NCBI RefSeq assembly: GCF_900102015.1
Contig: NZ_FNAT01000004.1
Coordinates: 1-64,000, forward strand
DNA: 64,000 bases
Direction: 5' to 3'
Origin: Limimaricola pyoseonensis
Lineage (GTDB): Bacteria; Pseudomonadota; Alphaproteobacteria; Rhodobacterales; Rhodobacteraceae
Position numbers and translations under genes: made by a program. How positions within the stretch are numbered: position 1 is the stretch's first letter; each line of letters starts with the position of its first letter. Positions 28,817 to 60,906 of this stretch are shown here, piece by piece. The notes beneath the pieces were generated by a model. That model did not search any database. It was not told the origin of the DNA and saw only the letters and a list, made by a program, of their open reading frames with translations.

Positions 28817-28834
28817 GCCGGTCCACCGACATGA

Positions 28835-28855: not shown

Positions 28856-28877
28856 CCCCCATTTCCCGGAGAGCCGC

Positions 28878-41853: not shown

Positions 41854-41916
41854 CTCGTCCAGCAACCGCAGCCGGCCGCCCTCTCCCGGGCGGCGCCACG
41901 TGCCCGAGGAGCCCCC

Positions 41917-42423
41917 ATGCAGACATCCCTGACCATCAATGGCGAGACGCGGCAACTCGACCTCGACCCGCGCACCAGCCTGCTCGACGCGCTGCGCCAC
42001 CATCTCGGCCTGACCGGCAGCAAGAAAGGCTGCGACCACGGCCAGTGCGGCGCCTGCACCGTGCTGATCAACGGCCGCCGGGTGAACGCCTGCCTGTCGC
42101 TGCTGTGCATGCATGAGGGCGACGAGGTCGTCCCCATCGAGGGGCTTGGCCAGCCGGGCGCGCTGAGCCCGATGCAGCAGGCCTTCGTCGAAAAGGACGG
42201 CTACCAGTGCGGCTACTGCACCCCGGGCCAGATCTGCTCGGCCACCGCGATGCTCGAGGAGATCGCCCAGGGCTGGCCCAGCCATGTCACCGCCGATCTG
42301 GAGGCGCGGCCCGAACTGACCACCGAGGAGATCTCCGAGCGGATGAGCGGCAATCTCTGCCGCTGCTCGGCCTATCCCAACATCGTGGACGCGATCCGCA
42401 AGGCGGCAGGAGAGACGGCATGA
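41917..42423 (+). CDS. paoA: Aldehyde oxidoreductase [2Fe-2S] subunit (PaoA-like)
   Basis: A 168-residue subunit with two [2Fe-2S] centres. The plant-type ferredoxin domain has [11 protein letters not shown] and a later C, and the second domain has [11 protein letters not shown] plus [12 protein letters not shown]. It passes electrons from the molybdenum site to FAD. E. coli PaoA begins with a twin-arginine signal for export; this protein starts at [13 protein letters not shown] with no signal, so the complex should be cytoplasmic. Its stop overlaps the FAD-subunit start (ATGA). Confidence 0.9.
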
Positions 42424-45592: not shown

Positions 45593-45948
45593 GCCGGGCT
45601 CGAAGGTTCTCGGCGGTGCGCGAGGCCTCCGGCTTATCGATATCGAGCAGCCGTGGGCGGCGGGTCATGGCCTTGCCGCTCATGGCGCGCTTCCACGCGG
45701 CATCGCCCGTACCCCGTCATGCGCCGCGCCTGAAAGGGAATCCGCCGAAAATCTTTCGACGCCGCCCGCGATTCTGCAGGGGTTGTCGAAAGGGGCCTTC
45801 GGAACGGTCCGACCGGCTACTGATGGCGAGGATATCGGGAGCATGGTGCAGAATGTCGCTCCCGGCAGTGCCGCGGGGCGCAGGATCGGCACTCGATGCA
45901 AGGCACCTCCTGCGCCCGGCGGATCCGTCGTGACAGCGCGCCGGGGCC
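45593..45948. other. Gene-free stretch between convergent paoC and M14 peptidase genes
   Basis: About 356 bases with no recognisable coding sequence on either strand. It should contain terminators for both operons, but no clear hairpin with a T-run was found. Confidence 0.4.
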
Positions 45949-47649
45949 TCAGGCGGTCCCGGCGCGGCGCAGCATCCCGGCCACCGCGCGCACCACGCGG
46001 TACTGGCCTTCCTGGGCGATGCGGAAATCCTCGCCGCCCACCGTCTCGTCGGCGGCCTCGGTGATCAGCGTCACCGGGTAGAGCGCCTCGGAGGTCGCGC
46101 TCACCGTGAAGGGGATGCAGCCGGCATGCACCTCGAAGCTCTCGGCACCGACATAGCGGCGGTAGAGATCGAGCATGCGGCGGTTCTGCGCGGCGAGTTC
46201 GGGAAAGCCCTCCAGCGCCTCGAGCCCGGCGCGCAGAACCGTGCGGGCGAGGTCCTCATGCGCCGGGTCATGGCGCAGGATCAGGAAGAAGCCCTTGGGG
46301 ATGGTCCACTGCCCGAAGCCGCGCGGGATGTAGCCGGTCAGCGGCCGGGTCCATTCATGCGAGGGGTAGCCGTGCAGGTTCACATGCACCTCGGCCGGCA
46401 GCCGCGCATGGGCGAGGTCGCGGATCGCGCTCTCGTGGCGGCCCGCGCCGTGGCTGAGATCGGCGCCGCTCGCGGTGTAGCGGGCGGCGTGGTGCATGTG
46501 GCGCGGGTTGTCGGCGCAGAGCTCGCGGAAGAGCGCGTATCCGTCGGGGTTCTCGAGCGGGTTGAGCGTGAAGCTCACCTCGCCCTGGGCGGCGAGGTCG
46601 CGCCCGGCGCGCAGCGCGCCGACCATGGGCGAGCTTTCATTGGCGTGCTGACCGGCCGAGATGGCCAGCCGCGCCGGGCCGGAGCCCGCGACATGCCGCC
46701 CCTCGACCGGCCGGCCCTGCCGCGAGGTGGCGGCGTAGGCGTCGCCGCCGAGCGCCGCGAGATGCGCCGCGATCTGCGCCGGGTAGAGCCACTGCGTCGC
46801 GGCGTCGAGCGCCGGGCGGCCGGGCTGGTCGCGGTCGAGCTCGGGCCGCGCGGCGGTGCTGCGGATCTCCAGCCGCGGCCGCGCACCGCGCCGCACCAGC
46901 GGCACCACCTGCCCCGCCTTGACCGAGCGCTGGCCCGCCGCGAGGCCCAGCCGCTGCTGGAAGATCTCCAGCGCGGTGAAATAGATCTCCTCGTGCATCG
47001 CCTCTGCCAGCGACACGACCTCGGCGCCGACCGGCAGCACCTGGTCCTCATAGGGCAGCTCGACCGCCACCTCGAGCCGGTCGAAGAACGGCCCCTCCGG
47101 CTCATCGGCCGAGAGCGGATCGAGCGGCATGGCGCGCAGATGCGCGCAGACCGCTTCGAAGATCGCCTCGTATTCGGTCGGCAGCGCCCGGCCGCCCTGC
47201 CCGTCCTCGATCCAGCCGCAGGCGCCGAGCGCGCGGGCGCCGTCGTCGAGATCGCGCCAGCGGACCGGCACTTCCACCTCGGTGCGCCTCGCTTCGGTCT
47301 CGACCAGGTAGCGCGGCAGGCCATCGCCCGCATGGGCGCGCGGCCGGAACTCGATCTCGCAATGCGAGACCAGCGCGTGCAGCGGGTAGCATTCCAGCCG
47401 GAACCGGTCCTCGGGGCAGCCCTCGACCACCGGGTAATGGATCACCGCCCGCGCCGCGTGCGCGAGCAGCCCATCCTCCAGCACGTCGTGCAGGAGCGTC
47501 TTGTAGGCCGAGCGGACGCGCAGCTCGCGGCCCTCGGCCCGGGCGCGGGCCTCGGCGGCGCGCCGCGCGGCCGGCCCCTCGAACAGCCAGGCGGTGCGGG
47601 TGTCGTCGGGCAGCGCGTCGAGCGTGCGATCGAAGTCGCGCGCCGTCAT
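45949..47649 (-). CDS. M14-family zinc carboxypeptidase-like protein
   Basis: A 566-residue protein without a signal peptide, so cytoplasmic. A roughly 320-residue N-terminal part (SAYKTLLHDVLEDG, EGCPEDRFRLECYPL) is of unknown function. Then comes the M14 domain: ISAGQHANESSPM carries the HxxE zinc ligands, LNPLENPDGYALF follows, and NLHGYPSHEW holds the third His. EVHAGCIPFTVSATSEALYPVTLITEAADET near the end matches the catalytic-Glu region. Last gene of the dipeptide-importer operon (4-base overlap with the permease), so it probably hydrolyses the imported peptide or amide. Confidence 0.82.
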   Translation of the reverse strand: MTARDFDRTLDALPDDTRTAWLFEGPAARRAAEARARAEGRELRVRSAYKTLLHDVLEDGLLAHAARAVIHYPVVEGCPEDRFRLECYPLHALVSHCEIEFRPRAHAGDGLPRYLVETEARRTEVEVPVRWRDLDDGARALGACGWIEDGQGGRALPTEYEAIFEAVCAHLRAMPLDPLSADEPEGPFFDRLEVAVELPYEDQVLPVGAEVVSLAEAMHEEIYFTALEIFQQRLGLAAGQRSVKAGQVVPLVRRGARPRLEIRSTAARPELDRDQPGRPALDAATQWLYPAQIAAHLAALGGDAYAATSRQGRPVEGRHVAGSGPARLAISAGQHANESSPMVGALRAGRDLAAQGEVSFTLNPLENPDGYALFRELCADNPRHMHHAARYTASGADLSHGAGRHESAIRDLAHARLPAEVHVNLHGYPSHEWTRPLTGYIPRGFGQWTIPKGFFLILRHDPAHEDLARTVLRAGLEALEGFPELAAQNRRMLDLYRRYVGAESFEVHAGCIPFTVSATSEALYPVTLITEAADETVGGEDFRIAQEGQYRVVRAVAGMLRRAGTA

Positions 47650-48470
47650 TTCGTGGCTCCCAGCGGGTCGAGCCGGTCGCGCAGCCAGTCGCCCAGCAGG
47701 TTCAGGCCCAGCACGGTCAGCATGATCGCGAGGCCGGGGAAGACCGTGACCCAGGGCGCGGTCTGGATGTAGTTGCGCCCGTCGGCCAGCATGCCGCCCC
47801 AGCTCGGCACCAGCGGGTCGATCCCGAGGCCGAGGAAGGTGAGGCTGCTTTCCAGCAGGATGTTGTTGGCGACGTTCAGCGTCGCGAGGATCACCAGAGG
47901 CCCCATGGCGTTGGGCAGGATGTGGCCGAACAGGATCTTGCGGTTGGGCAGCCCGTAGCTCTGCGCCGCCTGCACGAACTCGGCCTGGCGCAGCGACAGC
48001 ACCGAGCCGCGGATCAGCCGCGCGTACTGCACCCATTGCGCGACGATCATCAGCAGGATGATCCGGTCGAGGCCGGGGCCGATGATCGCGATCACCGTCA
48101 TCGCCAGAAGGATGAAGGGCAGCGCCAGCTGGATGTCGGCGAAGCGCATCAGGAACATGTCCCACGGGCCCCGGTAGTAGCCCGCGAAGAGGCCCACCAC
48201 CGTGCCGATCACCACCGCGCCGAGCGCCGAGACGATGCCCACGAAGAACGACACCTTGCCGCCCACCACCACGCGGGCGAGGATGTCGCGCCCGAGCGGG
48301 TCGGTGCCCAGCGGATGCTCCCAGCCCTGGAACGGCGCGGCGAGCCGCGCGGTCAGGTCCATCGCCCGGCCGCCCTCGGGAAACAGCACGGGCGACAGCA
48401 GCACCGCGCCGCCGATCAGCGCCACCAGCACGAGACCGGCGACGAACTCGAAACTCTTGAAGCCGGTCAT
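47646..48470 (-). CDS. Dipeptide/oligopeptide ABC permease, DppC type
   Basis: A 274-residue inner-membrane permease with HPLGTDPLGRDILARVVVGGKVSFFVGIVSA and the EAA loop AQSYGLPNRKILFGHILPNA, both typical of DppC/OppC. It ends with a 4-base overlap into the M14 peptidase gene. It pairs with the DppB-type permease encoded directly upstream. Confidence 0.93.
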   Translation of the reverse strand: MTGFKSFEFVAGLVLVALIGGAVLLSPVLFPEGGRAMDLTARLAAPFQGWEHPLGTDPLGRDILARVVVGGKVSFFVGIVSALGAVVIGTVVGLFAGYYRGPWDMFLMRFADIQLALPFILLAMTVIAIIGPGLDRIILLMIVAQWVQYARLIRGSVLSLRQAEFVQAAQSYGLPNRKILFGHILPNAMGPLVILATLNVANNILLESSLTFLGLGIDPLVPSWGGMLADGRNYIQTAPWVTVFPGLAIMLTVLGLNLLGDWLRDRLDPLGATK

Positions 48471-48474
48471 GGCG

Positions 48475-49401
48475 TCACTCCAGTCGGATACGGGGGTCGA
48501 GCAGCATGTAGGTGAGGTCGACCAGGAGGTTCACGGCGACGATCATCACCGCGAGGATCGAGATCACCGTCTGCAGGATCGGGTAGTCGCGCTGCGCGAT
48601 CGCCTCGATCGCCAGCGTGCCCATGCCGGGCCAGTTGAACACCAGCTCGACCACGACGAGGCCGCCCATCAGCGAGCCGAACTGCAGGCCGAGATAGGTG
48701 ACCAGCGCGATCGAGCTGTTGCGCAGCGCGTGCTTGTAGATCACCGCGGTCTGCGACAGCCCCTTGGCGCGCGCCACCATGATGAACTGCGAGGACAGCA
48801 CGTCGAGCATTGTGGTGCGCACGATGCGCAGGTTGGTCGAGGTCAGGATCACGCCGATCGTCACCGCCGGCATGATCAGCGACGCAGGCCCCATGAAGCC
48901 CGAAGGCGGCAGCCAGCGCAGCGTCACCGAGAAGATCAGCACCAGCATGATGCCGAGCCAGAAGTTCGGGAAGGACAGCCCGGCGAGCGACAGCACCCGC
49001 ACCAGCTGGTCCCCGAAGGAGCCGCGATGCGTGGCGGCGTAGATGCCGAGCGGGATCGAGATGACGAGCGACACCGCGAGCGAGGTCAGCGCCAGAAGCA
49101 GCGTGGCGCCGAGCGCGTCAGAGACCAGCGGCCCGATCGCGCCGCGGAAGAAGCTCGCGCCGAGATCGCCGGTCAGGAGTCCGGTGATGAAGTCCCAGTA
49201 CTGCACCAGGAAGGGCCGGTTCAGGCCCAGCCCCTCGCGGATCCGGGCGAGATCCTCCGGGGTCACGTTCGCGGATTCGCGCAGCATCATCACCGCCGGG
49301 TCGCCGGTGAGACGGATCGCGAAGGAGACGAACAGCGTCACCGCGACCAGCACGAAGCCGGCCTGGATCACGCGCTTGAGGACGAAGGAGAGGATGGGCA
49401 A
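48475..49401 (-). CDS. Dipeptide/oligopeptide ABC permease, DppB type
   Basis: A 308-residue permease: an N-terminal helix (MPILSFVLKRVIQAGFVLVAVTLFVSF), GLNRPFLVQYWDFITGLLTGDLGASF and the EAA loop ARAKGLSQTAVIYKHALRNS. The start is a TTG (49401) preceded on the minus strand by GGAGG at good spacing; no ATG exists near the conserved N-terminus. It follows the hairpin behind the binding-protein gene. Confidence 0.92.
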   Translation of the reverse strand: MPILSFVLKRVIQAGFVLVAVTLFVSFAIRLTGDPAVMMLRESANVTPEDLARIREGLGLNRPFLVQYWDFITGLLTGDLGASFFRGAIGPLVSDALGATLLLALTSLAVSLVISIPLGIYAATHRGSFGDQLVRVLSLAGLSFPNFWLGIMLVLIFSVTLRWLPPSGFMGPASLIMPAVTIGVILTSTNLRIVRTTMLDVLSSQFIMVARAKGLSQTAVIYKHALRNSSIALVTYLGLQFGSLMGGLVVVELVFNWPGMGTLAIEAIAQRDYPILQTVISILAVMIVAVNLLVDLTYMLLDPRIRLE

Positions 49402-49460: not shown

Positions 49461-50984
49461 TTACTCGGCGACGCCGACCTCGGTCAGGCGCAGCCGCTTG
49501 TCGGGCGCCGGCACGAAGCCCTCGACCCGGTCGGCCACCGCGTAGACGGTCTGCTCGTTGTAGAGCGGGATGTGGTAGGCCTCCTCATGGGCGAGGTTGG
49601 CCACCTCCTGCAGGATCTCCTCGCGCAGCGCCTGATCGGGCGAGCTGCGCTGCTCGTCGAGCAGTTCGTTCATCTCTTCCGAGGTGCCGTAGGGGTTCCA
49701 CTTCTCGCCCTCGTGGTAGGAGAGATAGGCGGTGTTGTCGAAGTCGAAGGTCCAGCCGCCCCAGCTGAACTGGAACATCTCGTTGGTCCGGCCCTGCGGC
49801 ACGATCTCGTTGAGGAAGACGCCGTCCTCGATCGGGTTCAGGCCGACATTCAGGCCGACCGCGGCGAAGAAGCCGGTCAGCGCCTGCGCCACCTCGTTGA
49901 AGGTCGAGTTGCCGGCCCGGTAGTCGATGGTCATCTCGGTGCCCGGCGCGACGCCGGCTTCCTTCAGGAGCGCCATCGCCTGCTCGGGGTCGAAGGGATA
50001 GCCCTCGAGCTCCGGGTCATGGCCGAAGGACAGCTCGCCCTGCAGGCTGGCGATCGGCGTGCCGCGGCCCGCGAGGAAGGCGTCGATCAGCGCCTGCTTG
50101 TCGACCGCCATGTTGAGCGCGCGGCGCACCCGCACGTCCTCGGTCACCGCGTCCTTGGTCTTGAGCGCGAGCGAGTAGATGGTCGGGCCCGAGACCGCGA
50201 CGATCTCGGCGTTGTCCGAGGCCTCGATGGTCGGCACCGCCGAGAAGGCCACGTCCGAGACGATGTCGACGCCGCCCGACTGCAGCTCGGCCAGGCGCGT
50301 CGCGTCCTCGCGGATGAAGCGGAACACCAGCTTGTCGAGTTCCGGCGCGCCCTCGAAGTAGTCGGGGTTGGCCTCCAGCTCGATCCGCGCGCCCTGCTCG
50401 TAGCGCACGAACTTGAACGGGCCGGTGCCGACCGGGTTCATGTCGAAATGCTCCTGGCCCATCTCCTCGATGTAATCCGGCGGCACGATCATCGCGCCGT
50501 AGCCCGACAGCTTGGTCAGGATCACCGGGTCGGGCTGGGCCATCTTGAACTCGACGGTGTGCTCGTCGACGATCTCGACGCTCTCGACCGTGGTGTAGTT
50601 CGACTGCTGCGGGCCGGCGGCGCCGACCTCGCCCAGCAGGCGGTCGAAGGTGTATTTCACCGCCTCGGCGTCGAAGGGCTCGCCGTTGTGGAAGCTCACG
50701 CCCTGGCGCAGGTTGAAGCGGATGGTCATGCCGTCCTCGGAGACCTCCCAGCTCTCGGCGAGGCCGGGCTGCAGCTCGAGGTTCTCGTCGCGGCGCACCA
50801 GGCCGTCATAGATGTTCGAGGCGACCGAGCCCCAGGCCACCAGGAAGGTGTCGGTCGGGTCCCAGTTGGCCGGGTCCTGGCGCTGCGCCACGGTGAGCGT
50901 ACCCTCGGCCAGAGCGGGGGCCGCGACAAGCGCGGTCGAGGCGGCGAGCGCCGCGGTCAGCAGGCGCGTGTGGAGTGTCGTCAT
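49461..50984 (-). CDS. Dipeptide/oligopeptide-binding protein (SBP family 5)
   Basis: A 507-residue periplasmic protein with a signal peptide ending at APALAEGTL (about residue 27). Family 5 features: QDPANWDPTDTFLVAWGSVASNIYDGLVRRDE, ESWEVSEDGMTIRFNLRQGVSFHNGEPFDAEAVKYTFDRL and VGTGPFKFVRYEQG. It overlaps the fused ATPase stop by 4 bases. Ligand class is peptides or similar amides; neighbourhood with pxpBCA suggests glutamyl or pyroglutamyl compounds (inference). Confidence 0.92.
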   Translation of the reverse strand: MTTLHTRLLTAALAASTALVAAPALAEGTLTVAQRQDPANWDPTDTFLVAWGSVASNIYDGLVRRDENLELQPGLAESWEVSEDGMTIRFNLRQGVSFHNGEPFDAEAVKYTFDRLLGEVGAAGPQQSNYTTVESVEIVDEHTVEFKMAQPDPVILTKLSGYGAMIVPPDYIEEMGQEHFDMNPVGTGPFKFVRYEQGARIELEANPDYFEGAPELDKLVFRFIREDATRLAELQSGGVDIVSDVAFSAVPTIEASDNAEIVAVSGPTIYSLALKTKDAVTEDVRVRRALNMAVDKQALIDAFLAGRGTPIASLQGELSFGHDPELEGYPFDPEQAMALLKEAGVAPGTEMTIDYRAGNSTFNEVAQALTGFFAAVGLNVGLNPIEDGVFLNEIVPQGRTNEMFQFSWGGWTFDFDNTAYLSYHEGEKWNPYGTSEEMNELLDEQRSSPDQALREEILQEVANLAHEEAYHIPLYNEQTVYAVADRVEGFVPAPDKRLRLTEVGVAE

Positions 50985-52816
50985 GATGCGATGCCTTCCC
51001 TGTATTGTTCGAAGTTTTCGTGGTTGTCGGCCAGCAGGTGGCCCGGCGCGACCTCGACGAAGCCGTGGCTGCGCCGCGGATCGCCGACGGCCCGGACCGG
51101 GCTCGGGATGTCGCCCGTCAGCGTGACGCGCTCCGGCGGACGCGTCGGGTCCATCACCGGAACCGCCCGCAGCAGGCGCTTCGTATAGGGGTGTTGCGGG
51201 TTCTCGAAGATCTGGCGGCGGGTGCCCATCTCGACGATCTCGCCCAGATACATCACCGCGACACGGTGGCTGACCCGCTCGACCACCGCCATGTCGTGGC
51301 TGATGAACAGGTAGGCCAGCCCGCGCCGGGCCTGGATGTCCATCATCAGGTTGATCACCTGCGCCTGCACGCTGACATCGAGCGCCGAGACCGCCTCGTC
51401 GGCGATGATCAGCCCCGGATCGACCGCCAGCGCCCGGGCGATGGCGATGCGCTGACGCTGCCCGCCCGAGAACTCGTGCGGGTAGCGGCCGGCATGTTCG
51501 GGCCTGAGCCCGACCGAGGTCAGAAGCTCGGCCACCTGAGCGTCGGCGTCCTTCAGCAGGCCATGCGTCGCCATCGGCTCGGTCAGGCTCTGCTTCACCG
51601 TCTTGCGCGGATTGAGCGAGCCGTAGGGGTCCTGGAAGATGTACTGGATCTCGCGCTTGAAGCGCTGGCGCTGCGTCGGGTCGAGCGACAGGATGTCGGT
51701 GCCGCGATAGAGGATGCGGCCGGAGACGGGCGCGACCAGCTGCTGCAGCGTCTTGCCGACCGTCGACTTGCCCGACCCGCTCTCGCCCACCAGCGCCAGC
51801 GTCTCGCCGGGATGGATCTCGAAGCTGACATCCTCTGCGGCGTGGACGCGGTGGCTGACCCGGCCGAAGAAGCCCGAGGTGATGTCGTAGCGCGTCGTCA
51901 CCTTCTCGAGCCGCACCAGCGGCTCGCCACGCTCGGGCGCGGGGTGGTCGCCGGCCTCGGCCGCCGCCTGCCCCGGCAGGTCGAACTTGCGCGGCGCCTC
52001 GGCGCCCTGCATCGCGCCGATCTTCGGCACGGCGGCCATCAGCGCGCGGGTGTAGTCGGCCTTGGGCCGCAGGATGACCTCCTCGGCGGGGCCGGCCTCG
52101 ACCATCTCGCCATGCCGCATCACCACGATCTCGTCGGCCATCTCCGAGACCACGCCCATGTCGTGGCTGATGAAGATCACCGAGGTGCCGAATTCCTCCT
52201 GCATGTCGCGGATGATCTGCAGGATCTGCGCCTGGATCGTGACGTCGAGCGCGGTGGTCGGCTCGTCGGCGATCAGGAGGTCCGGTCGGCACGACACCGC
52301 CATGGCGATCATCACCCGCTGGCGCATGCCGCCCGAAAGCTGGTGCGGGTAGCGGTCGAGCTGGGCGCGGGCGTTGGGCAGCCGCACCAGCTCCAGAAGC
52401 CGCGCCGCCTCGTCGCGCGCAGCCTTGCCGCGCAGCCCGCGATGCAGCTTCAGCGCCTCGCCGATCTGGCTGCCGATGGTGAAGACCGGGTCGAGCGAGG
52501 TCATCGGCTCCTGGAAGATCATCGAGACCCGGTTGCCGCGGATCCGGCGCAGATCGGCCTCCGAGGCGCCGGTGATCTCGGTCTCGCCCGAGGGGCCGTT
52601 GAGCCGGATCGAACCGGAGGTGACGCGGCCGCCGGTGAACTTCAGAAGGCCCATCGCGGCCATGGAGGTGACGGATTTGCCCGAGCCGCTTTCGCCGACG
52701 ATGGCGAGCGTGCCGCCGCGCGGCACCTCGAAGCTCAGCCCGCGCACCGCCTCGGTCGCGCCGAAGGCGATCGACAGGTTCTCGACGGTCAGAATCGGAG
52801 CGGTGGTCTCAGACAA
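50981..52816 (-). CDS. Fused dipeptide ABC ATPase (DppD-DppF type)
   Basis: A 611-residue protein joining the two ATPases of a peptide importer. The N-terminal half has Walker A GESGSGKS (about 37-44), LSGGMRQR and ADEPTTALD. The C-terminal half, after a linker with [14 protein letters not shown], has a second [26 protein letters not shown] and the oligopeptide C-terminal [11 protein letters not shown]. First gene of the leftward operon, downstream of the candidate MarR site at 52901-52924. Confidence 0.94.
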
Positions 52817-52900
52817 GTCGGCTTCCTCCCGGCACGCCAGCGGCGGCCCTCCCAGATCGTTCGCCGGACGCTAGCCAAGCCGCGAGAGGTTTGCAAACAT

Positions 52901-52924
52901 GTTACTGACAAATTGTCGATATTA
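52901..52924. promoter_or_regulatory. Candidate MarR operator in front of the dipeptide operon
   Basis: A 24-base AT-rich sequence containing the palindrome GACAA-A-TTGTC (52907-52917). It matches 18 of 24 bases with 53570-53593 in the pxp promoter region. It lies 85 bases upstream of the ATPase start and just after the MarR stop. Confidence 0.7.
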
Positions 52925-52929
52925 TCTTC

Positions 52930-53478
52930 TCATACCGAGGCGACGGACCGCGCCGCCTGGTCGTAAAGTCCTGACATTCCGCGTAGAACCGTCGCCAAGC
53001 GGCGCAACTCCTCGTTGTCGGATTCCATCGAGTGCAGCGTGTCGAGCAGGCAGATCTCGCGCAACTCGCGGTATTTCTGGCAGACCTCGGCCCCCTTCTC
53101 GGTGGTCGCGTAGTAGCGCTCCTTGCCGCGCCGCTCGCCGGCCACCAGCCCCTCGGCCACCAGCTTCTTCAGCGCGTAGGTGACGGTGTGCTGGTCCTCG
53201 ATGTTGAGCACGAAGCAGATGTCGGACAGCCGCTTGGCGCGGCCGCGGTGGTTGACGTTGTGCAGCACCAGCACGTCGAGCGCGCCGAAGTTGGAATGCC
53301 CGACCACGGCGGCGAGGCAGCGGGTCATCCAGCGCCCGAAGGCGTTCTGCGCGACGATCAGGCCGTATTCGTACTCCGACAGCTCCCAGCCCTCGTGCTG
53401 CGCCAGATGCTCCGAGGAGACGATCTTCTGTGCCCGCGGGCCCTGTCCTTTTTGGTCGCGGCCCGTCCGTCCAGCCAT
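52930..53478 (-). CDS. MarR-type winged-helix regulator
   Basis: A 182-residue regulator with a MarR-like winged helix. NFGALDVLVLHNVNHRGRAKRLSDICFVLNIEDQHTVTYALKKLVAEGLVAGERRGKERYYATTEKG covers the recognition helix and wing. Start ATG 53478 is chosen because similarity begins there; the longer frame crosses the opposite pxp gene. It is encoded between the dipeptide operon (same strand, downstream) and pxpBCA (divergent), with the same operator sequence on both sides, so it likely controls both and itself. Confidence 0.87.
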   Translation of the reverse strand: MAGRTGRDQKGQGPRAQKIVSSEHLAQHEGWELSEYEYGLIVAQNAFGRWMTRCLAAVVGHSNFGALDVLVLHNVNHRGRAKRLSDICFVLNIEDQHTVTYALKKLVAEGLVAGERRGKERYYATTEKGAEVCQKYRELREICLLDTLHSMESDNEELRRLATVLRGMSGLYDQAARSVASV

Positions 53479-53562
53479 GTCGACGCTCCCTTCCTGTTGC
53501 TTCATGCAAGCTGCAACGTCTTGTCCCGACATGCAATCTAGCGGATTCGATGCGGATCGATG

Positions 53563-53593
53563 TTGGCATTTTACCGATAAATTGTTGCTATTG
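53563..53593 (+). promoter_or_regulatory. pxpBCA promoter with MarR-type operator
   Basis: TTGGCA (53563-53568), 17 bases, then TGCTAT (53586-53591) make a plausible promoter. The 24-base operator copy (53570-53593) covers the spacer and -10, consistent with repression. The core GATAAATTGTT is a less perfect dyad than the copy at 52907. Confidence 0.6.
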
Positions 53594-53644
53594 CGACCGC
53601 GCCGGTCTAGCCTCGCCGCGACGCCGCCAATCCGGAGACCCGCC

Positions 53645-54379
53645 TTGGAGCTTCTCGCCGCACGCCCGCTGGCCGACCGGGCCGTCACCTTCGAGCTGGC
53701 CACAGAGGTCGGGGCCGAGGCCGCCGCCCGCGTCGGCGCCGCGCAGGCCCGGCTCTCGGCGCTGCTCGAGGCGGGCGAGCTGCCCGGCGCGCTGGAGCTG
53801 TCGCGCGCCTTCTGCGCGATCACCCTGCATTACGACCCGCTGGAAGGCCGCCAGGCCGGCCTCGTCGCGCGGGTCCGCGCCGCGCTCGAGGACACCGAGC
53901 CCGCTGCCGCCACAGGCGGGCGGCTCTGGCGCCTGCCCTGCCTCTACGAGGGCGAGGATCTCGACGATCTCTCCACCCGGCTCGGCATGGCCCGCGACGA
54001 GATCACCGCCCGCCACGCCGCGACCGAGCATCTCGTCCACGCCATCGGCTTCCTGCCCGGCTTGCCCTTCATGGGCGGGCTGCCCGACGGCTTTTCTGTG
54101 CCGCGCCGCGAGACGCCGCGCACCCGCGTGCCGCAGGGCTCGGTCGCCATCGCCAACGGCCTGACCGTGATCTACCCGTTCGAGAGCCCCGGCGGCTGGC
54201 ACATCCTCGGCCGCTGCCCGGTGCCGCTCTTCGACGCGGCCCGCGACGCGCCGGCGCTGCTGTCGGCCGGCGACCGGGTGCGCTTCGCGCCGGTGGACCG
54301 GCCCGAGTTCGACCGCCTCGCCGCCGCCCACGCGGCCGGTACCGCCGATCCGGAAACCTACGCGGAGGCGGCAACATGA
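53645..54379 (+). CDS. pxpB: 5-oxoprolinase subunit PxpB (KipI family)
   Basis: A 244-residue protein of the KipI/allophanate hydrolase subunit 1 family, part of the ATP-dependent PxpABC complex that opens 5-oxoproline (pyroglutamate) to glutamate. Seen: LPCLYEGEDLDDLS, HAIGFLPGLPFMGGLPDGFSVPRRETPRTRVPQGSVAIA and YPFESPGGWHILGRCP. The start is a TTG at 53645 preceded by GGAGA; no ATG fits the conserved N-terminus. The stop overlaps pxpC (ATGA). Confidence 0.92.
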   Translation: MELLAARPLADRAVTFELATEVGAEAAARVGAAQARLSALLEAGELPGALELSRAFCAITLHYDPLEGRQAGLVARVRAALEDTEPAAATGGRLWRLPCLYEGEDLDDLSTRLGMARDEITARHAATEHLVHAIGFLPGLPFMGGLPDGFSVPRRETPRTRVPQGSVAIANGLTVIYPFESPGGWHILGRCPVPLFDAARDAPALLSAGDRVRFAPVDRPEFDRLAAAHAAGTADPETYAEAAT

Positions 54380-55440
54380 GCGCGCGTCTCGTCCTCACCC
54401 GCGCCGGCGCCCGCAGCCTCCTGCAGGACACCGGCTTTCGCGGCGGCCGCGGCACCGGCGTGCCGGCCGCGGGCGCGCTCGACCGCGACGCGCTCTACCT
54501 CCTGAACCGGCTACTCGGCAACGCGCCGGACGCCGCCGCGATCGAGGCGGCGCTGATGCCGCCGGCGCTGCGGGCCGAGGGGGGCGCGGTGCGGCTGGCG
54601 CTCGGCCCCGGCCTCGCCGGGCAGGTCTCGGGCGACAACCCGCGCCCGGTCGGCGCCTGGACCGCCTTCACCCTGCATCCGGGCGAGACGCTGGCGCTGA
54701 AGCTCGATCCGGGCTGCCCGGTGGCGCTGATCGGCATCGGCGGCGCGATCGCCCTGCCCCGCGCGCTCGGCAGCCACGCCACGCTGGCCCGCGCCGGGCT
54801 CGGCCCCTTCGGCCGGGCGCTTGGCGACGGCGACGCCATCCCGCTCGAGGCCGCAGCCACAGACCCGGGCGACACCACCTTCGCCGCCCCGCCCAGCCCC
54901 GCGACCGGCCCGATCCGCGCCGTGCCGGGCCCGCAGGCCGAGTGGTTCACCGAGGACGCCATGGCGACCTTCTTCGGCACGGACTACACCGTCGGCGCCG
55001 AGACCGACCGCATGGGGATGCGGCTCGAGGGGCCGAAGCTTGCCCATTCCGAGCGCGGTGCCGACATCGTCTCGGACGGCATCGCGCCGGGCGCGGTGCA
55101 GGTGCCGGGCAGCGGCCAGCCGATCGTGCTTCTGGCCGATGCGCAGACCACCGGCGGCTACCCCAAGATCGCCACGGTGATCGGCGCCGACCTGCCGCGC
55201 CTCGCCCGACTCGCCCCCGGCGACAGCCTGCGCTTCGAAGCCGTCACCGTCGAGCAGGCCGAGGACGCGGCACGCGCGCGGCGCGCCGAGCTCGACCGGA
55301 TCGCGCAGGCCATCGTGCCCGCCAATGCCGGCCGGATCGACCCGCGCGCGCTGTGGCGCGCCAACCTCGCGGGCCAGGCCGTGGACGCGCTCTGCCCCGA
55401 CCATTTCGCCGCCCACCCGGAACCGGAGGACCGCCCGTGA
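54376..55440 (+). CDS. pxpC: 5-oxoprolinase subunit PxpC (biotin-dependent carboxyltransferase-like)
   Basis: A 354-residue partner subunit (allophanate hydrolase subunit 2/KipA family): SLLQDTGFRGGRGTGVPAAGALDRDALYLLNRLLGN, GMRLEGPKLAHSE, SDGIAPGAVQVPGSGQPIVLLADAQTTGGYPKIATV. It joins PxpB in the kinase/cyclase half of 5-oxoprolinase. The stop overlaps the GTG start of pxpA. Confidence 0.93.
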   Translation: MSARLVLTRAGARSLLQDTGFRGGRGTGVPAAGALDRDALYLLNRLLGNAPDAAAIEAALMPPALRAEGGAVRLALGPGLAGQVSGDNPRPVGAWTAFTLHPGETLALKLDPGCPVALIGIGGAIALPRALGSHATLARAGLGPFGRALGDGDAIPLEAAATDPGDTTFAAPPSPATGPIRAVPGPQAEWFTEDAMATFFGTDYTVGAETDRMGMRLEGPKLAHSERGADIVSDGIAPGAVQVPGSGQPIVLLADAQTTGGYPKIATVIGADLPRLARLAPGDSLRFEAVTVEQAEDAARARRAELDRIAQAIVPANAGRIDPRALWRANLAGQAVDALCPDHFAAHPEPEDRP

Positions 55441-56207
55441 AGATCAACCTCAACGCCGACCTCGGCGAAAGCTTCGGGCCCTACGTCATCGGCAATGACG
55501 AGGCGCTGCTCGGCGTGGTGGGCGCGGCCAACATCGCCTGCGGCTTCCATGGCGGCGACCCGGTGGTGATCGCCCGCGCCATCGCCCGCGCCCGCGAGAC
55601 CGGCGCCAGCATCGGCGCGCATCCCGGCCATGCCGACCTGCAGGGCTTCGGCCGCCGCGCCATGACGCTTTCGGAGGGCGAGTTGCGCCATTCGGTGCTC
55701 TACCAGGTCTCGGCGGTCGCCGGCATGGCGCGCGCGCTCGGCCACCCCCTCACCCACGTCAAGCCGCATGGCGCGATGAACAACCAGGCCTGCGCCGACC
55801 GCGCCATGGCCGACACCATCGCCCGCGCCGTGGCCGAGGCCGACCCGGACCTGATCCTGCTCGCCCCGGCGCTGTCGGAACTGGCGGCGGCGGGCGAGGC
55901 CGCGGGCCTGCGCGTCGCGCTCGAGGTCTTCGCCGACCGCACCTACGAGGCCGATGGCAGCCTCACCCCGCGCGCCCGGCCCGGATCGGTGCTGCATGGC
56001 CGCGACGAGGCGCTGGGGCATGTGAAGCGGATGATCGAGGCCAGCGGCATCGTCACCCGCGAGGGCGAGACGCTGAAGACGCCCTTCCACTCGATCTGCG
56101 TGCATGGCGACGGCGCCGAGGCGCTCGACACCGCCCGCGCGCTGCGCGAGGCGCTGGCTAGCTGGGGCCACGCGCCCGTCACCCTGCCCGAGTCGCTCGC
56201 CGGCTGA
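55437..56207 (+). CDS. pxpA: 5-oxoprolinase subunit PxpA (LamB/YcsF family)
   Basis: A 256-residue protein starting at GTG 55437 (GTGA overlap). Hallmarks: NLNADLGESFGPY, ANIACGFHGGDP, GASIGAHPGHADLQGFGRR, THVKPHGAMNNQ, EVFADRTYEADGSLTPR and a final SICVHGDG. With PxpB and PxpC it converts 5-oxoproline to L-glutamate with ATP. The operon removes a toxic cyclisation product and fits growth on glutamyl peptides. A hairpin follows. Confidence 0.95.
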   Translation: MKINLNADLGESFGPYVIGNDEALLGVVGAANIACGFHGGDPVVIARAIARARETGASIGAHPGHADLQGFGRRAMTLSEGELRHSVLYQVSAVAGMARALGHPLTHVKPHGAMNNQACADRAMADTIARAVAEADPDLILLAPALSELAAAGEAAGLRVALEVFADRTYEADGSLTPRARPGSVLHGRDEALGHVKRMIEASGIVTREGETLKTPFHSICVHGDGAEALDTARALREALASWGHAPVTLPESLAG

Positions 56208-56248: not shown

Positions 56249-57349
56249 TCAGCCCAGCCTGAGGTCGCGCGACAGGCCCGACAGGATCTCCGCCCCGCCC
56301 TCGCGCAGCACCACGATGTCCTCGAGCCGGATGCCGAAGCGGCCCTCGAGATAGATCCCCGGCTCGATCGAGAAGACGCAGCCTTCCTCGAGCACCGCGT
56401 CGCTGCTGGCGGAGATGTAGGGCGGCTCGTGCACGTCGAGGCCGAGCCCATGGCCGGTACGGTGCAGGAACCTCTCGCCATGGCCCGCCGCCTCGATCAC
56501 GCCGCGCGCCGCGCGGTCGATCTCGGAGGCGCGCACGCCCGGCCGGGCGACCTCGAGCGCGGCCTGCACCGCGCGCTCGACCACCGTCGCCACCTCGAGG
56601 AACTCGGGATCGGGCGCGCCGCCGAACCAGCCGCAGCGGGTCATGTCTGACGGGTAGCCCATGTGGCGGCAGCCGCTGTCGATCAGCACCGCCATGCCCG
56701 GCGCGAGCCGGGTGTCGCCGGTGTGGTGATGCGGGTAGGCGCCGTTCGCGCCGAAGCCGATGATGGTGAATTCGGGCCGCGCGCCATGCGCCTCGTAATG
56801 GGCGTGGATCACCTCCTGCAGCTCGCGCTCGGTCATGCCCTCGCGCAGCGCGTCGAAGGCGGCGGTGACGGCGGCGTCATTGAGCCGGGCGCTGGCGGTG
56901 AGCGCCTCGATCTCGGCCGCGTCCTTGGCGGCGCGCAGGCGGCCCAGCGTGTCGGCGCTGAAGCGGCGGCGCGGGGCGGCGAGCGCGTCGAGCAGGCGCA
57001 GCGCGAAATCGGCGCGCATGGTCTCGTCGAGCACCACCGAAAGGCCCGGCCGGTCGGCGTCGCAGGCCACCAGCAGCGCGGCGAGCGCCGCGTCGGGCCC
57101 CTGGTCGTCGGACCAGCAATGCAGCGGCAGGTCGGTCACCTGCCGGGCGGCGCCGGCGTTGAGCGCCGGCATCAGGAAGCCGGCCCGGTCGGGGCCGACC
57201 AGAAGCATCACCGGGCGTTCGTCGCCATGCGGGTCGAGGCCGGTGAGCCACATCATGTGGCTCGACGGGCCGATCGCCACGAGGTCGGTTCCGGTCTGGC
57301 GCATCAGCGCCTGCAGCCGCGCCAGGCGGTCGGCATGGGGAGAGGTCAT
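56249..57349 (-). CDS. M24-family metallopeptidase (Xaa-Pro peptidase-like)
   Basis: A 366-residue pita-bread peptidase with an N-terminal creatinase-like domain (RLARLQALMRQTGTDLVAIGPSSHMMWLTG). The dimetal site looks complete: Asp in VLIDSGC, Asp in SDMTRCGWF, His in HRTGHGLGLDVHEPP, Glu in SIEPGIY and Glu in RLEDIV. Members cleave N-terminal Xaa-Pro bonds; some act on creatine-like compounds. It is cotranscribed behind the binding protein and its hairpin, so it probably processes the second importer's cargo. Confidence 0.9.
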   Translation of the reverse strand: MTSPHADRLARLQALMRQTGTDLVAIGPSSHMMWLTGLDPHGDERPVMLLVGPDRAGFLMPALNAGAARQVTDLPLHCWSDDQGPDAALAALLVACDADRPGLSVVLDETMRADFALRLLDALAAPRRRFSADTLGRLRAAKDAAEIEALTASARLNDAAVTAAFDALREGMTERELQEVIHAHYEAHGARPEFTIIGFGANGAYPHHHTGDTRLAPGMAVLIDSGCRHMGYPSDMTRCGWFGGAPDPEFLEVATVVERAVQAALEVARPGVRASEIDRAARGVIEAAGHGERFLHRTGHGLGLDVHEPPYISASSDAVLEEGCVFSIEPGIYLEGRFGIRLEDIVVLREGGAEILSGLSRDLRLG

Positions 57350-57371
57350 GCGGGGCGTCCTTTCGTGAAAA

Positions 57372-57398
57372 GGACCGCCGGCAGGGCGCCGGCGGTCC
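57372..57398. terminator. Hairpin after the second peptide-binding protein gene
   Basis: Arms GGACCGCCGGC and GCCGGCGGTCC, 11 bases, 5-base loop, in the 68-base gap between the binding-protein stop and the M24 start on the minus strand. No T-run. Fourth such element behind a binding-protein gene in this window. Confidence 0.75.
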
Positions 57399-57417
57399 GA
57401 TGCGGTCGCGGTCCGGC

Positions 57418-59004
57418 TCAGTCCTTCTCGACCAGCCGGTAGAACACGAAGTCCGAGGTGGCGCCGTTGACGTAGCCGCTCACGTCCTCGTCCATCGCCA
57501 CCTGGTAGGAGGCCTGGAACATCACCACGATCGGGCTGTCCTCCTGCGTCTTCTTCTGCAGCTCGCGATACATCTCGAGCCGCTTCTCCGGGTCGCTTTC
57601 CGTCAGCGCCGCGCGGGTCATCTCGTTCATCTCCTCGGGCACCGCCCAGGCGTTGCGCCAGGTGGTGGTCGCCGCGTAGGCGTCGTCGGAGTTGTCCGAG
57701 TTGTAGGCGAAGGCCTTGGCGTTGGAATGCGGGTCCATGAAGTCCGGGCCCCAGTAGAGCAGCATCGCCTCGTGGCTGCGCTCGCGGTACTTGGTGATCA
57801 CCTGGCTGCCGGTGCCGGGCAGGATCTCGAAGTTGATGCCCGCATCCGCGAAGCTGGCCTGCAGCGACTGCGCCATGTCGGTGAAGGGGGCGGCGTTGAT
57901 CACGTCGAGCGAGACGGTGATCGGGGTGTCGATCCCGGCCTCGTCGAGGATCTGCTTCGCCTTCTCCGGGTCGTAGCTGTAGGGCGTCTCGTCATAGGAG
58001 CCGGGGAAGCCCTTGGGCCAGAAGGCCTGGTGGATCTCCATCTGGCCGTCGACGATGCTGTCGGTCATGCCGGTGTAGTCGACGAGGTAGCGCGCCGCTT
58101 CCCAGACCGCCGGGGGCGTCAGGCTCTCGGTCTTCTGGTTGAACGACAGGAAGTGCACCGCCGCCTGCGGGAAGGTCTCGACCTTGATGCCCTCGGCCGA
58201 GAGCGAGGCGATCTGGTCCGGCGTCAGGTTGCGCGCCATGTCGACGTCGCCCTGCTCGAGCAGCAGCTGCTGCGTCGCGGCCTCGGCCACGTGCTGCAGG
58301 ATCAGCCCCTCGATCTTCGGCGCGCCCTTGAAGTAGTCGGGGTTGGCCTGCAGCCGCACCAGCTCGGCCGGGCGGTACATCTGCAGCGAGAACGGGCCGG
58401 AGCCGGCGGCGTTCTCGTTCAGCCAGGCGTTGCCCATGTCGCCGTCGACCTCGTTCTCCATCACCGTCGCCATGTCGACGATCGAGGCGGGGCGCGCGGC
58501 CAGGACGTTCAGCACGAAGGCGGGCGAGAACTCGCCCTCGTAGCGGATCGTGACGGTGTTGCCCTCGGCGGTCACCATCTCGTCGACGTTCTCGGGCGTC
58601 CAGCCGAGCTGGGCGAGAATGAAGGCCGGGGTCTTGTCGAGCTTGATGACGCGGGCGAGCGAGCCGGTCACGTCCTCGGCCCGCACCGGGTTGCCCGAAT
58701 GGAACACCGCGTCGTCGCGCAGGGTGAAGGTGATGGTCTTGGCCTCGGCATCGGCCTGCCATTCCGTCGCAAGGCCCGGCGCCAGCACGGTCGGGTCTTC
58801 CGCGTCGTACTGCACCAGCCGGTCGTAGAGGTTGGTGACCAGCTCGCCCGAGGTGAACTCGTAGGCCTGCGCCGGGTCGATCGCGACGATGTCGTCGATG
58901 TTCTGCGCCACGACCAGCAGGCCCGGGGGCGTCTCGGCCAGGGCCGGGCCGGCCAGCGGCAGCGCCAGCGCGGTCGCCAGCAGCGCGGATTTCAGGGTCT
59001 TCAT
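57418..59004 (-). CDS. Peptide-type ABC substrate-binding protein (SBP family 5)
   Basis: A 528-residue periplasmic protein with signal peptide (MKTLKSALLATALALPLAGPALAETP). Family 5 features include IDDIVAIDPAQAYEFTSGELVTNLYDRLVQYD, FTLRDDAVFHSGNPVRAEDV and AAGSGPFSLQMYRPAE. The remaining importer genes are not beside it but divergent at 59842-63387, across the XRE-cupin gene. Ligand unknown; the family also binds amino acid derivatives, nickel and sugars. Confidence 0.9.
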   Translation of the reverse strand: MKTLKSALLATALALPLAGPALAETPPGLLVVAQNIDDIVAIDPAQAYEFTSGELVTNLYDRLVQYDAEDPTVLAPGLATEWQADAEAKTITFTLRDDAVFHSGNPVRAEDVTGSLARVIKLDKTPAFILAQLGWTPENVDEMVTAEGNTVTIRYEGEFSPAFVLNVLAARPASIVDMATVMENEVDGDMGNAWLNENAAGSGPFSLQMYRPAELVRLQANPDYFKGAPKIEGLILQHVAEAATQQLLLEQGDVDMARNLTPDQIASLSAEGIKVETFPQAAVHFLSFNQKTESLTPPAVWEAARYLVDYTGMTDSIVDGQMEIHQAFWPKGFPGSYDETPYSYDPEKAKQILDEAGIDTPITVSLDVINAAPFTDMAQSLQASFADAGINFEILPGTGSQVITKYRERSHEAMLLYWGPDFMDPHSNAKAFAYNSDNSDDAYAATTTWRNAWAVPEEMNEMTRAALTESDPEKRLEMYRELQKKTQEDSPIVVMFQASYQVAMDEDVSGYVNGATSDFVFYRLVEKD

Positions 59005-59047
59005 GTCACTCTCCCGTTGGTGATCATCGTTGTTGGTTCGGGTGCCG

Positions 59048-59665
59048 TCACTTCAGCAGACGGGGCGGCGCATCGGCGCGGCGCGCGCCGGCGCGGTGCA
59101 GCACGCCCAGCGTGCCGGTCCACAGGATGCGGGCGGGCCGGTCGCCCGGGTTGCGCCAGGCATGCGGCGTCGCGCCCGAGTAATGCAGGCTGTCGCCCGC
59201 GCGCATGTGGAAGGTCTCCTCGCCCAGCACCTGCTCGATCTCGCCCTCGAGGATGAGGATGATCTCCTCGCCCTCGTGATGCACCAGCTCCGAGACGTGG
59301 CCCGGCGGGATGTGCAGCATGTAGGAGGACAGCTCCGAGCCCGGAAACTCGTGGCTGATCTGCTCGTAGACGAGGTCGGAGCCGGCCAGCGAGAAACGCA
59401 TCCGCTCGCCGTCGCGGGTCAGCGCGTCGGCGGGGCGCGGCGTGGCGACGAAGTAGTCGAGCCCGACATCCACCGCCTCGGCGATCTGGGCCAGCGTGCC
59501 GAGCGAGGGCGCGGCGTTGTCGCGCTCGACCTGGCTGAGATAGCCGACCGAGAGCCCGGCCCGTTCGCCGAGCTGCTTCAGCGTCAGGCCGAGCTGCTTG
59601 CGGCGCTTGCGGATCAACGGGCCGAGCGGCGTGTCCGGGCTGGTCTGGATGGCGGTTCTGGGCAT
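59048..59665 (-). CDS. XRE-family regulator with C-terminal cupin domain
   Basis: A 205-residue regulator: N-terminal XRE helix-turn-helix (LIRKRRKQLGLTLKQLGERAGLSVGYLSQVERDNAAPSL) and a C-terminal cupin (HHEGEEIILILEGEIEQVLGEETFHMRAGDSLHYSGATPHAWRNPG) that binds a small effector, in the manner of PuuR-like proteins. ATG 59665 is preferred to a TTG at 59749 that lies in the control region. It sits between the two divergent halves of the second peptide importer and probably represses both. Confidence 0.9.
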   Translation of the reverse strand: MPRTAIQTSPDTPLGPLIRKRRKQLGLTLKQLGERAGLSVGYLSQVERDNAAPSLGTLAQIAEAVDVGLDYFVATPRPADALTRDGERMRFSLAGSDLVYEQISHEFPGSELSSYMLHIPPGHVSELVHHEGEEIILILEGEIEQVLGEETFHMRAGDSLHYSGATPHAWRNPGDRPARILWTGTLGVLHRAGARRADAPPRLLK

Positions 59666-59706
59666 CGGCGGCGCGGCTTCTCCGGGGCGGGACGCGTCGG
59701 GCGTCA

Positions 59707-59757
59707 CAAAAATTATTTTGATGTAAGCAAAACTTTTCGCTTGAACCAAGAAGTTTT
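59707..59757. promoter_or_regulatory. AT-rich control region with two inverted repeats
   Basis: CAAAA, 4 bases, TTTTG at 59707-59720; and AAAACTT at 59729-59735 with AAGTTTT at 59751-59757, 15 bases between. Strikingly AT-rich in GC-rich DNA, between the divergent XRE-cupin gene and permease genes. Likely promoters and operator of the XRE-cupin regulator. Confidence 0.6.
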
Positions 59758-59841
59758 TTTGGGCCGTCTAGGAAAAACGCCACCGGCCCCGCGGGGGGGC
59801 AGGCGGGCGCCGTGGCGCGCCGCCGCAGACGAGGAGACGCC

Positions 59842-60906
59842 GTGCCAGCCGTGCCCCGATCATCGACCCTGCCCGCGCTGGCGCTGCGCCGCGTCCGCCG
59901 GTTCGCGGCGCCGGTGCTGGGCTTCGTCGCCCTGACCGCGCTGACCTTCCTCGGGCTTCTCGCGATCACCTTCTTCATCGGCCGCGTCGTGCCGATCGAC
60001 CCGGTGCTGGCCGTGGTCGGCGACCGCGCCACGCAGGAGCAGTACGAGGCGGCGCGCCAGGCGATGGGGCTCGACCGGGCGCTGGTGGTGCAGTTCGCCG
60101 ACTATGTCTGGCAGGTGCTGCAGGGCGATCTCGGGCGCTCGGTCTCGACCAACCGCCCCGTGGTCGAGGACCTCGCCCGCGTCTTCCCCGCGACGCTTGA
60201 GATGGCGACGATCGGCATCGCGATCGGCGTCGCGCTCGGCGTGCCGATGGGGGTCTGGGCCGCGGCGCGGCAGGGCTCCTGGACCGACCAGGTGATCCGG
60301 GTGCTGGCGCTCTTGGGCTACTCGGTCCCGGCCTTCTGGCTCGGCCTCGTCGGGCTCGCGGTGTTCTATGCCGGGCTCGGCTGGGTCGCGGGGCCTGGGC
60401 GGATCGACATCTTCTACGACGGCATCGTGCCGCCGGTGACGGGGCTTCTGCTGGTCGACAGCCTGATCGCCGGCGACACCGGCATCTTCATGAACGCGCT
60501 GAGCCACATCGCCCTGCCGGCGGCGATCCTCGGCTTCTTCAGCCTCGCCTACATCGCGCGGATGACCCGCTCCTTCATGCTCGACCAGCTGAGCCAGGAA
60601 TACGTGACCACGGCGCGGGTGAAGGGCCTGTCCGAGTGGCGGGTGGTCTGGATCCACGCCTTCGGTCCGATCCGGGTGCCGCTGATCACCGTGATCGGGC
60701 TGAGCTACGCCGGCCTGCTCGAGGGCTCGGTGATGATCGAGACGGTGTTCTCCTGGCCCGGCATCGGCAACTACCTGACCGTGGCGCTGCTCAATGCCGA
60801 CATGAACGCGGTGCTCGGCGCGACGCTGGTGATCGGCGCGGTGTTCATCTTCATCAACCGCATTTCGGACGTGCTCTACCGCGTCCTCGACCCGAGGAGC
60901 CGCTGA
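59842..60906 (+). CDS. Peptide-type ABC permease, DppB type
   Basis: A 354-residue permease. Start at GTG 59842, preceded by GAGGAG; an earlier in-frame GTG (59812) lacks a ribosome site. Features: LGLLAITFFIGRVVPIDPVLAVVGDRATQEQYEAARQAMGLDRALVVQFADYVWQVLQGDLGRSV and the EAA loop ARVKGLSEWRVVWIHAFGPI. It is somewhat longer than usual because of an insert around GPGRIDIFYDGIVPPVTG, a periplasmic loop. One-base overlap (TGATG) with the next gene. Confidence 0.92.
   Translation: MPAVPRSSTLPALALRRVRRFAAPVLGFVALTALTFLGLLAITFFIGRVVPIDPVLAVVGDRATQEQYEAARQAMGLDRALVVQFADYVWQVLQGDLGRSVSTNRPVVEDLARVFPATLEMATIGIAIGVALGVPMGVWAAARQGSWTDQVIRVLALLGYSVPAFWLGLVGLAVFYAGLGWVAGPGRIDIFYDGIVPPVTGLLLVDSLIAGDTGIFMNALSHIALPAAILGFFSLAYIARMTRSFMLDQLSQEYVTTARVKGLSEWRVVWIHAFGPIRVPLITVIGLSYAGLLEGSVMIETVFSWPGIGNYLTVALLNADMNAVLGATLVIGAVFIFINRISDVLYRVLDPRSR

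Follow-up and report, generated by a model that had tools for sequence, protein, structure and literature searches.

Two 24-base sites on either side of a MarR-family gene of Limimaricola pyoseonensis, GTTACTGACAAATTGTCGATATTA at 52901-52924 and TTTACCGATAAATTGTTGCTATTG at 53570-53593, are very probably, judging from sequence comparison, operators of the regulator encoded between them. The window that we analysed is the whole stretch of 64,000 nt, in which the row of genes concerned runs M14-permC-permB-SBP-ABC-marR on the minus strand and then pxpBCA on the plus strand (Table 1). We consider it highly probable that these sites are MarR operators and that the clade to which this MarR belongs controls both the uptake and the cleavage of 5-oxoproline by means of a 23-bp palindrome with an 11-bp repeat. 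What the sequence itself shows is the operator and how it is conserved, where it lies over or beside promoter-like pairs, and the linkage of the genes; the core of the two predicted operators is GACAAATTGTC.

Table 1. Predicted operators, putative promoters and genes of the block, in coordinates of the 64,000-nt window.
Feature	Position	Strand	Remarks
Operator 1 (predicted)	52901..52923, centre 52912		15/23 to consensus; 7/11 palindromic pairs; before the minus-strand ABC/M14 operon
Operator 2 (predicted)	53570..53592, centre 53581		11/23 to consensus; 6/11 palindromic pairs; between marR and pxpB
Putative ABC operon promoter	52868..52896	-	TTGCAA, 17 bp, TAGCGT (or TTTGCA, 18 bp); adjoins operator 1, downstream
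Putative pxpB promoter	53585..53613	+	TTGCTA 53585-53590, 17 bp, TAGCCT 53608-53613; -35 within operator 2
marR	52930..53478	-	Winged-helix regulator, Pfam HTH_27, 182 aa; PF13463 E 5.6e-19
Fused dipeptide-type ABC ATPase	50981..52816	-	GsiA/DppDF-like; first gene of the importer operon
ABC solute-binding protein, family 5	49461..50990	-	
ABC permease, B-type	48475..49401	-	Dpp/Opp/Nik-like
ABC permease, C-type	47646..48470	-	Dpp/Opp/Nik-like
M14-like enzyme, divergent zinc-carboxypeptidase clan	45949..47664	-	Start codon uncertain
pxpB, 5-oxoprolinase subunit (CT_C_D)	53645..54379	+	TIGR00370 131.6 bits, cutoff 145.55; start codon assumed
pxpC, 5-oxoprolinase subunit (CT_A_B)	54376..55440	+	NF045499 194.3 bits, cutoff 500
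pxpA, 5-oxoprolinase subunit (LamB/YcsF)	55437..56207	+	NF003814 314.1 bits, above the cutoff of 226

The regulator scored 68.6 bits against PF13463, above the cutoff of 22.2, and is thus placed in the MarR family; against MarR_2 it scored 24.1 bits, under the cutoff of 27. The three pxp genes resemble those of PxpABC, the 5-oxoprolinase reportedly described by Niehaus in 2017, in that pxpB, pxpC and pxpA are adjacent and have the expected Pfam domains. They differ from the PxpABC equivalogs in that PxpB and PxpC fell below the NCBIfam equivalog cutoffs, a result that counts against the main reading, so that these two would be assigned by gene order and domains only. For PxpA, NF003814 is a subfamily model, and the PxpA equivalog models remained below their cutoffs.

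The two 24-mers lie in intergenic regions of 113 nt and 166 nt, one on each side of marR, and a recount confirmed the original prediction that they agree at 18 of 24 positions around AAATTGT. When the two intergenics were shuffled by dinucleotides 2000 times, 14 shuffles reached the same level of agreement, as did 44 of 974 random 166-nt pieces of the window compared with the first intergenic. Taken alone, the pairwise match is weak evidence, and these figures, together with the position of both sites at promoter-like pairs, speak for a match due to chance or to a common promoter element without a regulator. Since the match by itself is insufficient against chance, we relied on motifs trained elsewhere.

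A genome-wide motif search, which had been proposed as a check, was performed with the 15-base degenerate core TTACYGAYAAATTGT: in the 3.91-Mb genome it returned two matches with at most 2 mismatches, which are the two sites, while its reversed control returned 0. This core was derived from the two copies themselves, hence its genome count shows rarity and not function. With TTGACAAATTGTCAA, allowing 3 mismatches, we obtained 5 matches in the same genome, two of which are operator 1 read on both strands, against 3 for the reversed control; the search is therefore at about the control level once the known sites are set aside, and at 3 mismatches the pattern misses operator 2. For both reasons we claim no further members of the regulon. 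A family-wide pattern scan with at most 1 mismatch gave matches in 70 of 394 genomes, mostly isolated and scattered, and was excluded from the evidence; a strict 11-mer regular expression for the motif was dropped as too narrow.

For training, GTDB genomes were scanned with a MarR alignment (A1) and the best 80 among the matches listed were taken as the set of relatives, whose marR upstream regions gave, de novo, an 11-bp tandem pattern. Motif A was then built from 76 marR upstreams, three Limimaricola loci being left out, and motif B, trained separately from A, from 37 intergenics of neighbouring oxoprolinase/TRAP operons, again with Limimaricola left out. Using 20 random starts for the real sets and 8 for the shuffled ones, log-likelihoods were 406.6 for motif A and 419.0 for motif B, compared with at most 107.7 and 90.1, respectively, in five shuffled sets each. 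In the 64-kb window the two sites ranked at the top with both motifs, at 22.1 and 16.9 bits with motif A (next unrelated match 5.9) and at 22.9 and 19.3 bits with motif B (next unrelated match 1.4), and they were the sole strong matches with either.

Of 38 divergent oxoprolinase/TRAP intergenics, 34 scored at least 15 bits with the marR-upstream motif, compared with 2 of 380 shuffles; the training set for this count included Limimaricola upstreams. When it was retrained without Limimaricola and the marR upstream was masked, the best match of the whole locus fell in the divergent intergenic in 36 of 38 cases, these intergenics averaging 1.4% of locus length. In the remaining 42 loci, the best motif B match was at least 15 bits and lay before a marR, DctP, OplAH, pxp or ABC gene in 34; in the other 8 it was either below 15 bits (7) or elsewhere (1), which counts against the main reading.

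Within the genus, the motif was found in 5/5 ABC-side and 4/4 pxp-side intergenics of five genomes, window included, so it is not missing from relatives with the same gene order, an absence that would have told against the original prediction. All 9 intergenics beat each of their 200 mononucleotide shuffles with motif A and with motif B, the weakest being the ABC side of genome G151 (motif B 14.6 bits). That one operator is common to the dipeptide operon and pxpBCA, as had been predicted, is thus supported by the motifs from outside and by these 9/9 intergenics. A chance match or a common promoter element appears very improbable to us, because motifs from other genera single out exactly the two sites, the nine intergenics all have the motif, the degenerate core has only two matches in the genome and the retrained motif is so often the best of its locus.

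The whole block M14-permC-permB-SBP-ABC-marR-pxpBCA is present in genomes G154 and G152, is cut at both contig ends in G151, and in G149 the contig starts inside marR. Among 8 genomes of the genus, G107 and G153 gave no MarR under the thresholds applied, and in G150 there is only a relative at 58%. For four neighbouring genes on the right of the block, the other Limimaricola stretches gave no match exceeding 40% identity, and a nucleotide comparison of 40000-45900 and 56250-61000 with these stretches gave only four matches of 47-112 bases, in the right part. Some other regulator might read the sites, for instance the XRE-cupin protein encoded at 59048-59749, which is nearby and accompanied by a second peptide-type binding protein. 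We regard this as extremely unlikely, in that the Limimaricola stretches with conserved sites gave no match above 40% identity to the XRE-cupin gene, no top motif match lies near it, and across many genera the motif goes together with marR relatives.

From the aligned sites of 37 other operons, the operator consensus is AACGTTGACAA-A-TTGTCAACGTT, an odd-centred palindrome of 23 bp. It has an internal repeat of 11 bp, as the column profiles agree most closely at this lag (0.394), followed by a lag of 8 (0.333). The low agreement of operator 2 with this consensus counts against the main reading. As for the promoters, the ABC-side pair TTTRCA (TTTACA or TTTGCA), 18 bp, TAGCGT was found in 5/5 Limimaricola genomes, with operator 1 immediately upstream of the -35-like hexamer at 52891-52896 of the window; the pxpB-side pair TTGCTA/TTGATA/TTGATG, 17 bp, TAGNNT was found in 4/4. 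Since this promoter-like pair is conserved at a fixed spacing, operator 2 overlaps the -35-like hexamer of pxpB. The overlap of the second copy with a -10, which had been predicted earlier, was not borne out, and by eye there is no good -35 for any -10 within that copy. The -10 hexamers of both putative promoters are weak (3/6 to consensus).

This arrangement is relevant to the sign of regulation, given that MarR, instead of simply repressing both operons, could activate them, or could activate the ABC operon while repressing pxpB. A place upstream of the ABC -35-like hexamer is a possible one for an activator, operator 2 by comparison overlapping its hexamer, and weak -10 hexamers would suit activation. 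On the other hand, the 11-bp array reaches by eye towards the ABC -35, and the catabolic MarR proteins characterised so far are mostly repressors, so we consider an activating role unlikely.

Turning to the clade, which spans Alpha-, Beta- and Gammaproteobacteria, 61 of the 80 best-scoring MarR relatives have a 5-oxoprolinase-type gene on the locus DNA examined: 35 have pxpA, B or C (all three in 29) and 26 more have an OplAH-type gene, a label based on length and fused architecture. The OplAH-type query passed no NCBIfam cutoff and matched no 5-oxoprolinase model, which counts against the main reading; it matched, below cutoff, only caprolactamase and acetophenone carboxylase models. Likewise counting against it are the 19 relatives without an oxoprolinase gene on the locus DNA examined, 10 of which are on loci longer than 14 kb. 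A DctP-type gene occurs in 56 of the 80 relatives; of the 61 that have an oxoprolinase gene, 48 have one, for a TRAP binding protein of the pyroglutamate kind. We also considered 12 further loci of the family, chosen from 32 genomes with a match, in which MarR is 45-58% identical and which may overlap the 80. A 5-oxoprolinase-type gene and a best motif B match of at least 17.8 bits were found in 11 of them, with the sites beside marR or between divergent operons; the twelfth (L200) has no 5-oxoprolinase-type gene and a best motif B match of 15.5. The putative helix-turn-helix region of MarR, placed by eye, is highly conserved in 20 aligned relatives, which fits an operator common to the clade. 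For the MarR of the window, pxpBCA adjoins the gene, as the proposed gene context of the clade has it, and the clade motif precedes the target operons. From gene context and motif, the clade looks like a regulator of 5-oxoproline metabolism.

The MarR-linked TRAP binding protein of locus L124, compared with the PDB, matched 2pfz (2.2e-123), 6wgm (2e-88) and 2pfy (2.1e-87), of which 2pfz and 2pfy are, we take it, the Bordetella pyroglutamate receptors DctP7 and DctP6. In Bordetella pertussis, DctP6 and DctP7 are pyroglutamate TRAP receptors (Rucktooa 2007, as quoted in excerpts of PMC13274462, PMC5812351 and PMC12344293). The L124 protein resembles these receptors, as they appear in the quoted excerpts, in ranking 2pfz and 2pfy best but one and best but three. 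The block of the window differs from the DctP6/DctP7 loci in having a dipeptide-type ABC importer instead of a TRAP gene.

The M14-like family is rare, with 9 of 398 genomes in a sample of the phylum and 4 of 295 in a sample of the family, the own genome being counted in each. In the M14 pattern, H-x-x-E and H are zinc ligands and E is catalytic. The earlier assignment as an M14 peptidase stood in part. In fact, H340-x-x-E343, H431 and E536 (numbering of the 571-aa reading) are invariant in 13/13 M14-like sequences, whereas the match of the protein to PF00246 is distant (E 0.059, 13.4 bits) and below the cutoff of 21.6. PF00246 matches 11 of the 13 relatives (best 1.6e-4), AstE/AspA is about as good in 9/13, and the family profile finds carboxypeptidase B with an E of 0.0011. 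The protein itself has no NCBIfam match and, by eye, no obvious signal peptide, and its AlphaFold prediction has a pLDDT of 44.5.

The original prediction had also tied the importer and the M14 enzyme to the 5-oxoprolinase, and this linkage recurs outside the genus in Halomonas sp. S3-1-1, G774 and G768. In Halomonas sp. S3-1-1 (L086), ABC-SBP-permB-permC-M14-pxpA-pxpB face marR, with TRAP genes on the opposite side, and on the short contig of Halomonas sp. 707D7 (L082) ABC and SBP genes face marR. Among the 11 M14-like loci outside the genus that were examined, a close MarR of the clade is present in the genomes of 4 (G774, G768, G634 and G327), and the operator precedes importer, M14 or OplAH genes in the first three of these. 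In G774 marR is followed by ABC-SBP-permB-permC-M14-pxpA-pxpB-pxpC, and in G768 the M14 gene lies between OplAH and marR. In the alphaproteobacterium G634 the ABC-M14 operon is unlinked to marR/TRAP/OplAH, being on another contig, and the operator is found at both; in G327 the M14 match is partial and there is no operator site there. In G013, marR adjoins a dipeptide ABC set that is more distant (29-42%), with a second site of 18.9 bits between them.

The other 7 of the 11 loci come from genomes that have no close MarR of the clade (in G240 there is a relative at 32%), hence the importer and the M14-like enzyme are not always dependent on this MarR, which counts against the main reading. G693 (L166), without a clade MarR, has a strong site of 29.4 bits at 8010, before a permease remnant and an M14-like gene, and this operator is perhaps a relic; in G449 a weak site of 13.7 bits precedes the ABC gene, and G240 has a moderate one, of 16.0 bits, that is not before M14. 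In the four other M14 genomes that lack a close MarR of the clade, neither motif gave a site above 10.2 bits. Overall, the gene order and the sites suggest that the ABC importer and the M14-like enzyme joined the regulon in Limimaricola, Halomonas sp. S3-1-1 and G774 and, as an unlinked operon, in G634.

It is quite possible, although we do not think it probable, that the sites are MarR operators and that the substrate of the ABC/M14 system is no source of 5-oxoproline, the importer supplying instead other peptides or an N-acyl amino acid and being co-regulated for another reason, e.g. glutamate or nitrogen supply. Some genomes that lack the MarR clade have the ABC-M14 set, AstE/AspA deacylases score about as well for the M14-like family, and in NCBIfam the importer proteins match broad GsiA/Dpp/Opp/Nik models with no clear equivalog. 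What argues instead for a link to 5-oxoproline is that ABC or M14 genes are repeatedly joined with marR and with two kinds of 5-oxoprolinase genes, and that an unlinked ABC-M14 operon carries the operator.

5-Oxoproline arises spontaneously from glutamate and glutamine. In the mechanism that we propose, without inducer a MarR dimer, or perhaps several along the repeat, would occupy both sites and repress pxpBCA and the ABC/M14 operon, and perhaps marR too; 5-oxoproline or a close relative would bind MarR and cause its release. The ABC importer would then take up a source of 5-oxoproline, in the simplest case a pyroglutamyl peptide; the M14-like enzyme would free 5-oxoproline in the cytoplasm, and PxpABC would open it to glutamate. 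The pyroglutamyl or glutamyl amide suggested as nutrient in the original prediction is a candidate only. As a more general reading, the clade may be a 5-oxoproline sensor-repressor of Proteobacteria that acts through a single operator on two unrelated 5-oxoprolinases (PxpABC and OplAH-type) and on several kinds of importer, extended in Limimaricola and some gammaproteobacteria to the scavenging of pyroglutamyl peptides through the ABC importer and the M14-like hydrolase; we put this forward tentatively, as a near toss-up that leans slightly to the doubtful side.

By analogy, 5-oxoproline is the likeliest inducer, because a GntR repressor of Corynebacterium glutamicum, a protein of another family, binds it. 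This repressor, PxpR, has a KD for 5-oxoproline of 726 nM, and its authors, working on an actinobacterium (2026), knew of no earlier study on the regulation of bacterial 5-oxoproline metabolism (excerpts of PMC13274462). As far as these excerpts describe it, the PxpR system resembles ours in the regulator by the pxp genes, the divergent layout, the palindromic operator and 5-oxoproline catabolism; it differs in that PxpR is a GntR protein with the site agattgttcaacaatct and controls the transporter gene pxpT along with pxpABC, in an operon without an ABC importer or an M14-like enzyme (PMC13274462). The window regulator was ruled out as a PxpR type, given its HTH_27 match, its weaker non-GntR Pfam matches and an operator different from agattgttcaacaatct.

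With MarR-family catabolic repressors such as CouR, it has in common the winged-helix fold and operators beside catabolic genes. The clade differs from them in its gene context, which is that of 5-oxoproline, and in its operator, an odd-centred palindrome of 23 bp with a repeat of 11 bp. The A1 profile, compared with solved structures, gave three partial matches only (E 0.006-0.008). Under COG5631, presumably the label of this MarR family, no paper was found in the open-access literature. A search of that literature, mostly by title and start of abstract and with subscription papers and regulon databases outside its scope, gave no description of the clade, the operator or the link to 5-oxoproline, and the passages of a related paper with the PxpABC reference contain no MarR. 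A MarR/operator pair as a catabolic regulator is already known; what is specifically new here is the extension to the ABC importer and the M14-like enzyme. With its operator defined, the MarR clade offers a regulon that can be tested in many marine and soil Proteobacteria, the operator would predict 5-oxoproline importers of the TRAP, ABC and other types, and the regulon link gives a route to the substrate of an uncharacterised family of M14-like enzymes.

Some further observations concern the surroundings of the block and single loci. Beside pxpA, the region 56249-59749 has genes for an M24 peptidase, a second family-5 binding protein and a PuuR-like XRE-cupin regulator, from which a permease gene diverges at 59812 onward; both regions are outside the conserved block and have no top motif match. 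A TRAP-like pair is found at 27836-30660, 15 kb to the left of the block; it shares 24-28% identity with DctP and DctM (pyroglutamate type) of L124 and has no top motif match inside. Tail to tail with the M14-like gene, a large open frame at 43220-45592 is, by eye, molybdenum hydroxylase-like (xanthine dehydrogenase/CoxL type). The four Stutzerimonas relatives (L129, L134, L139 and L150) all have pxpA beside MarR, and three of these loci add pxpB, pxpC and, by eye, an NRAMP-like transporter gene, whose product is a candidate 5-oxoproline importer. In Limimaricola hongkongensis (L097, genome G150), the 58% MarR relative is found by TRAP and OplAH-type genes and not by pxp/ABC genes, with the operator between DctP and OplAH, so that two alternative gene sets occur within one genus.
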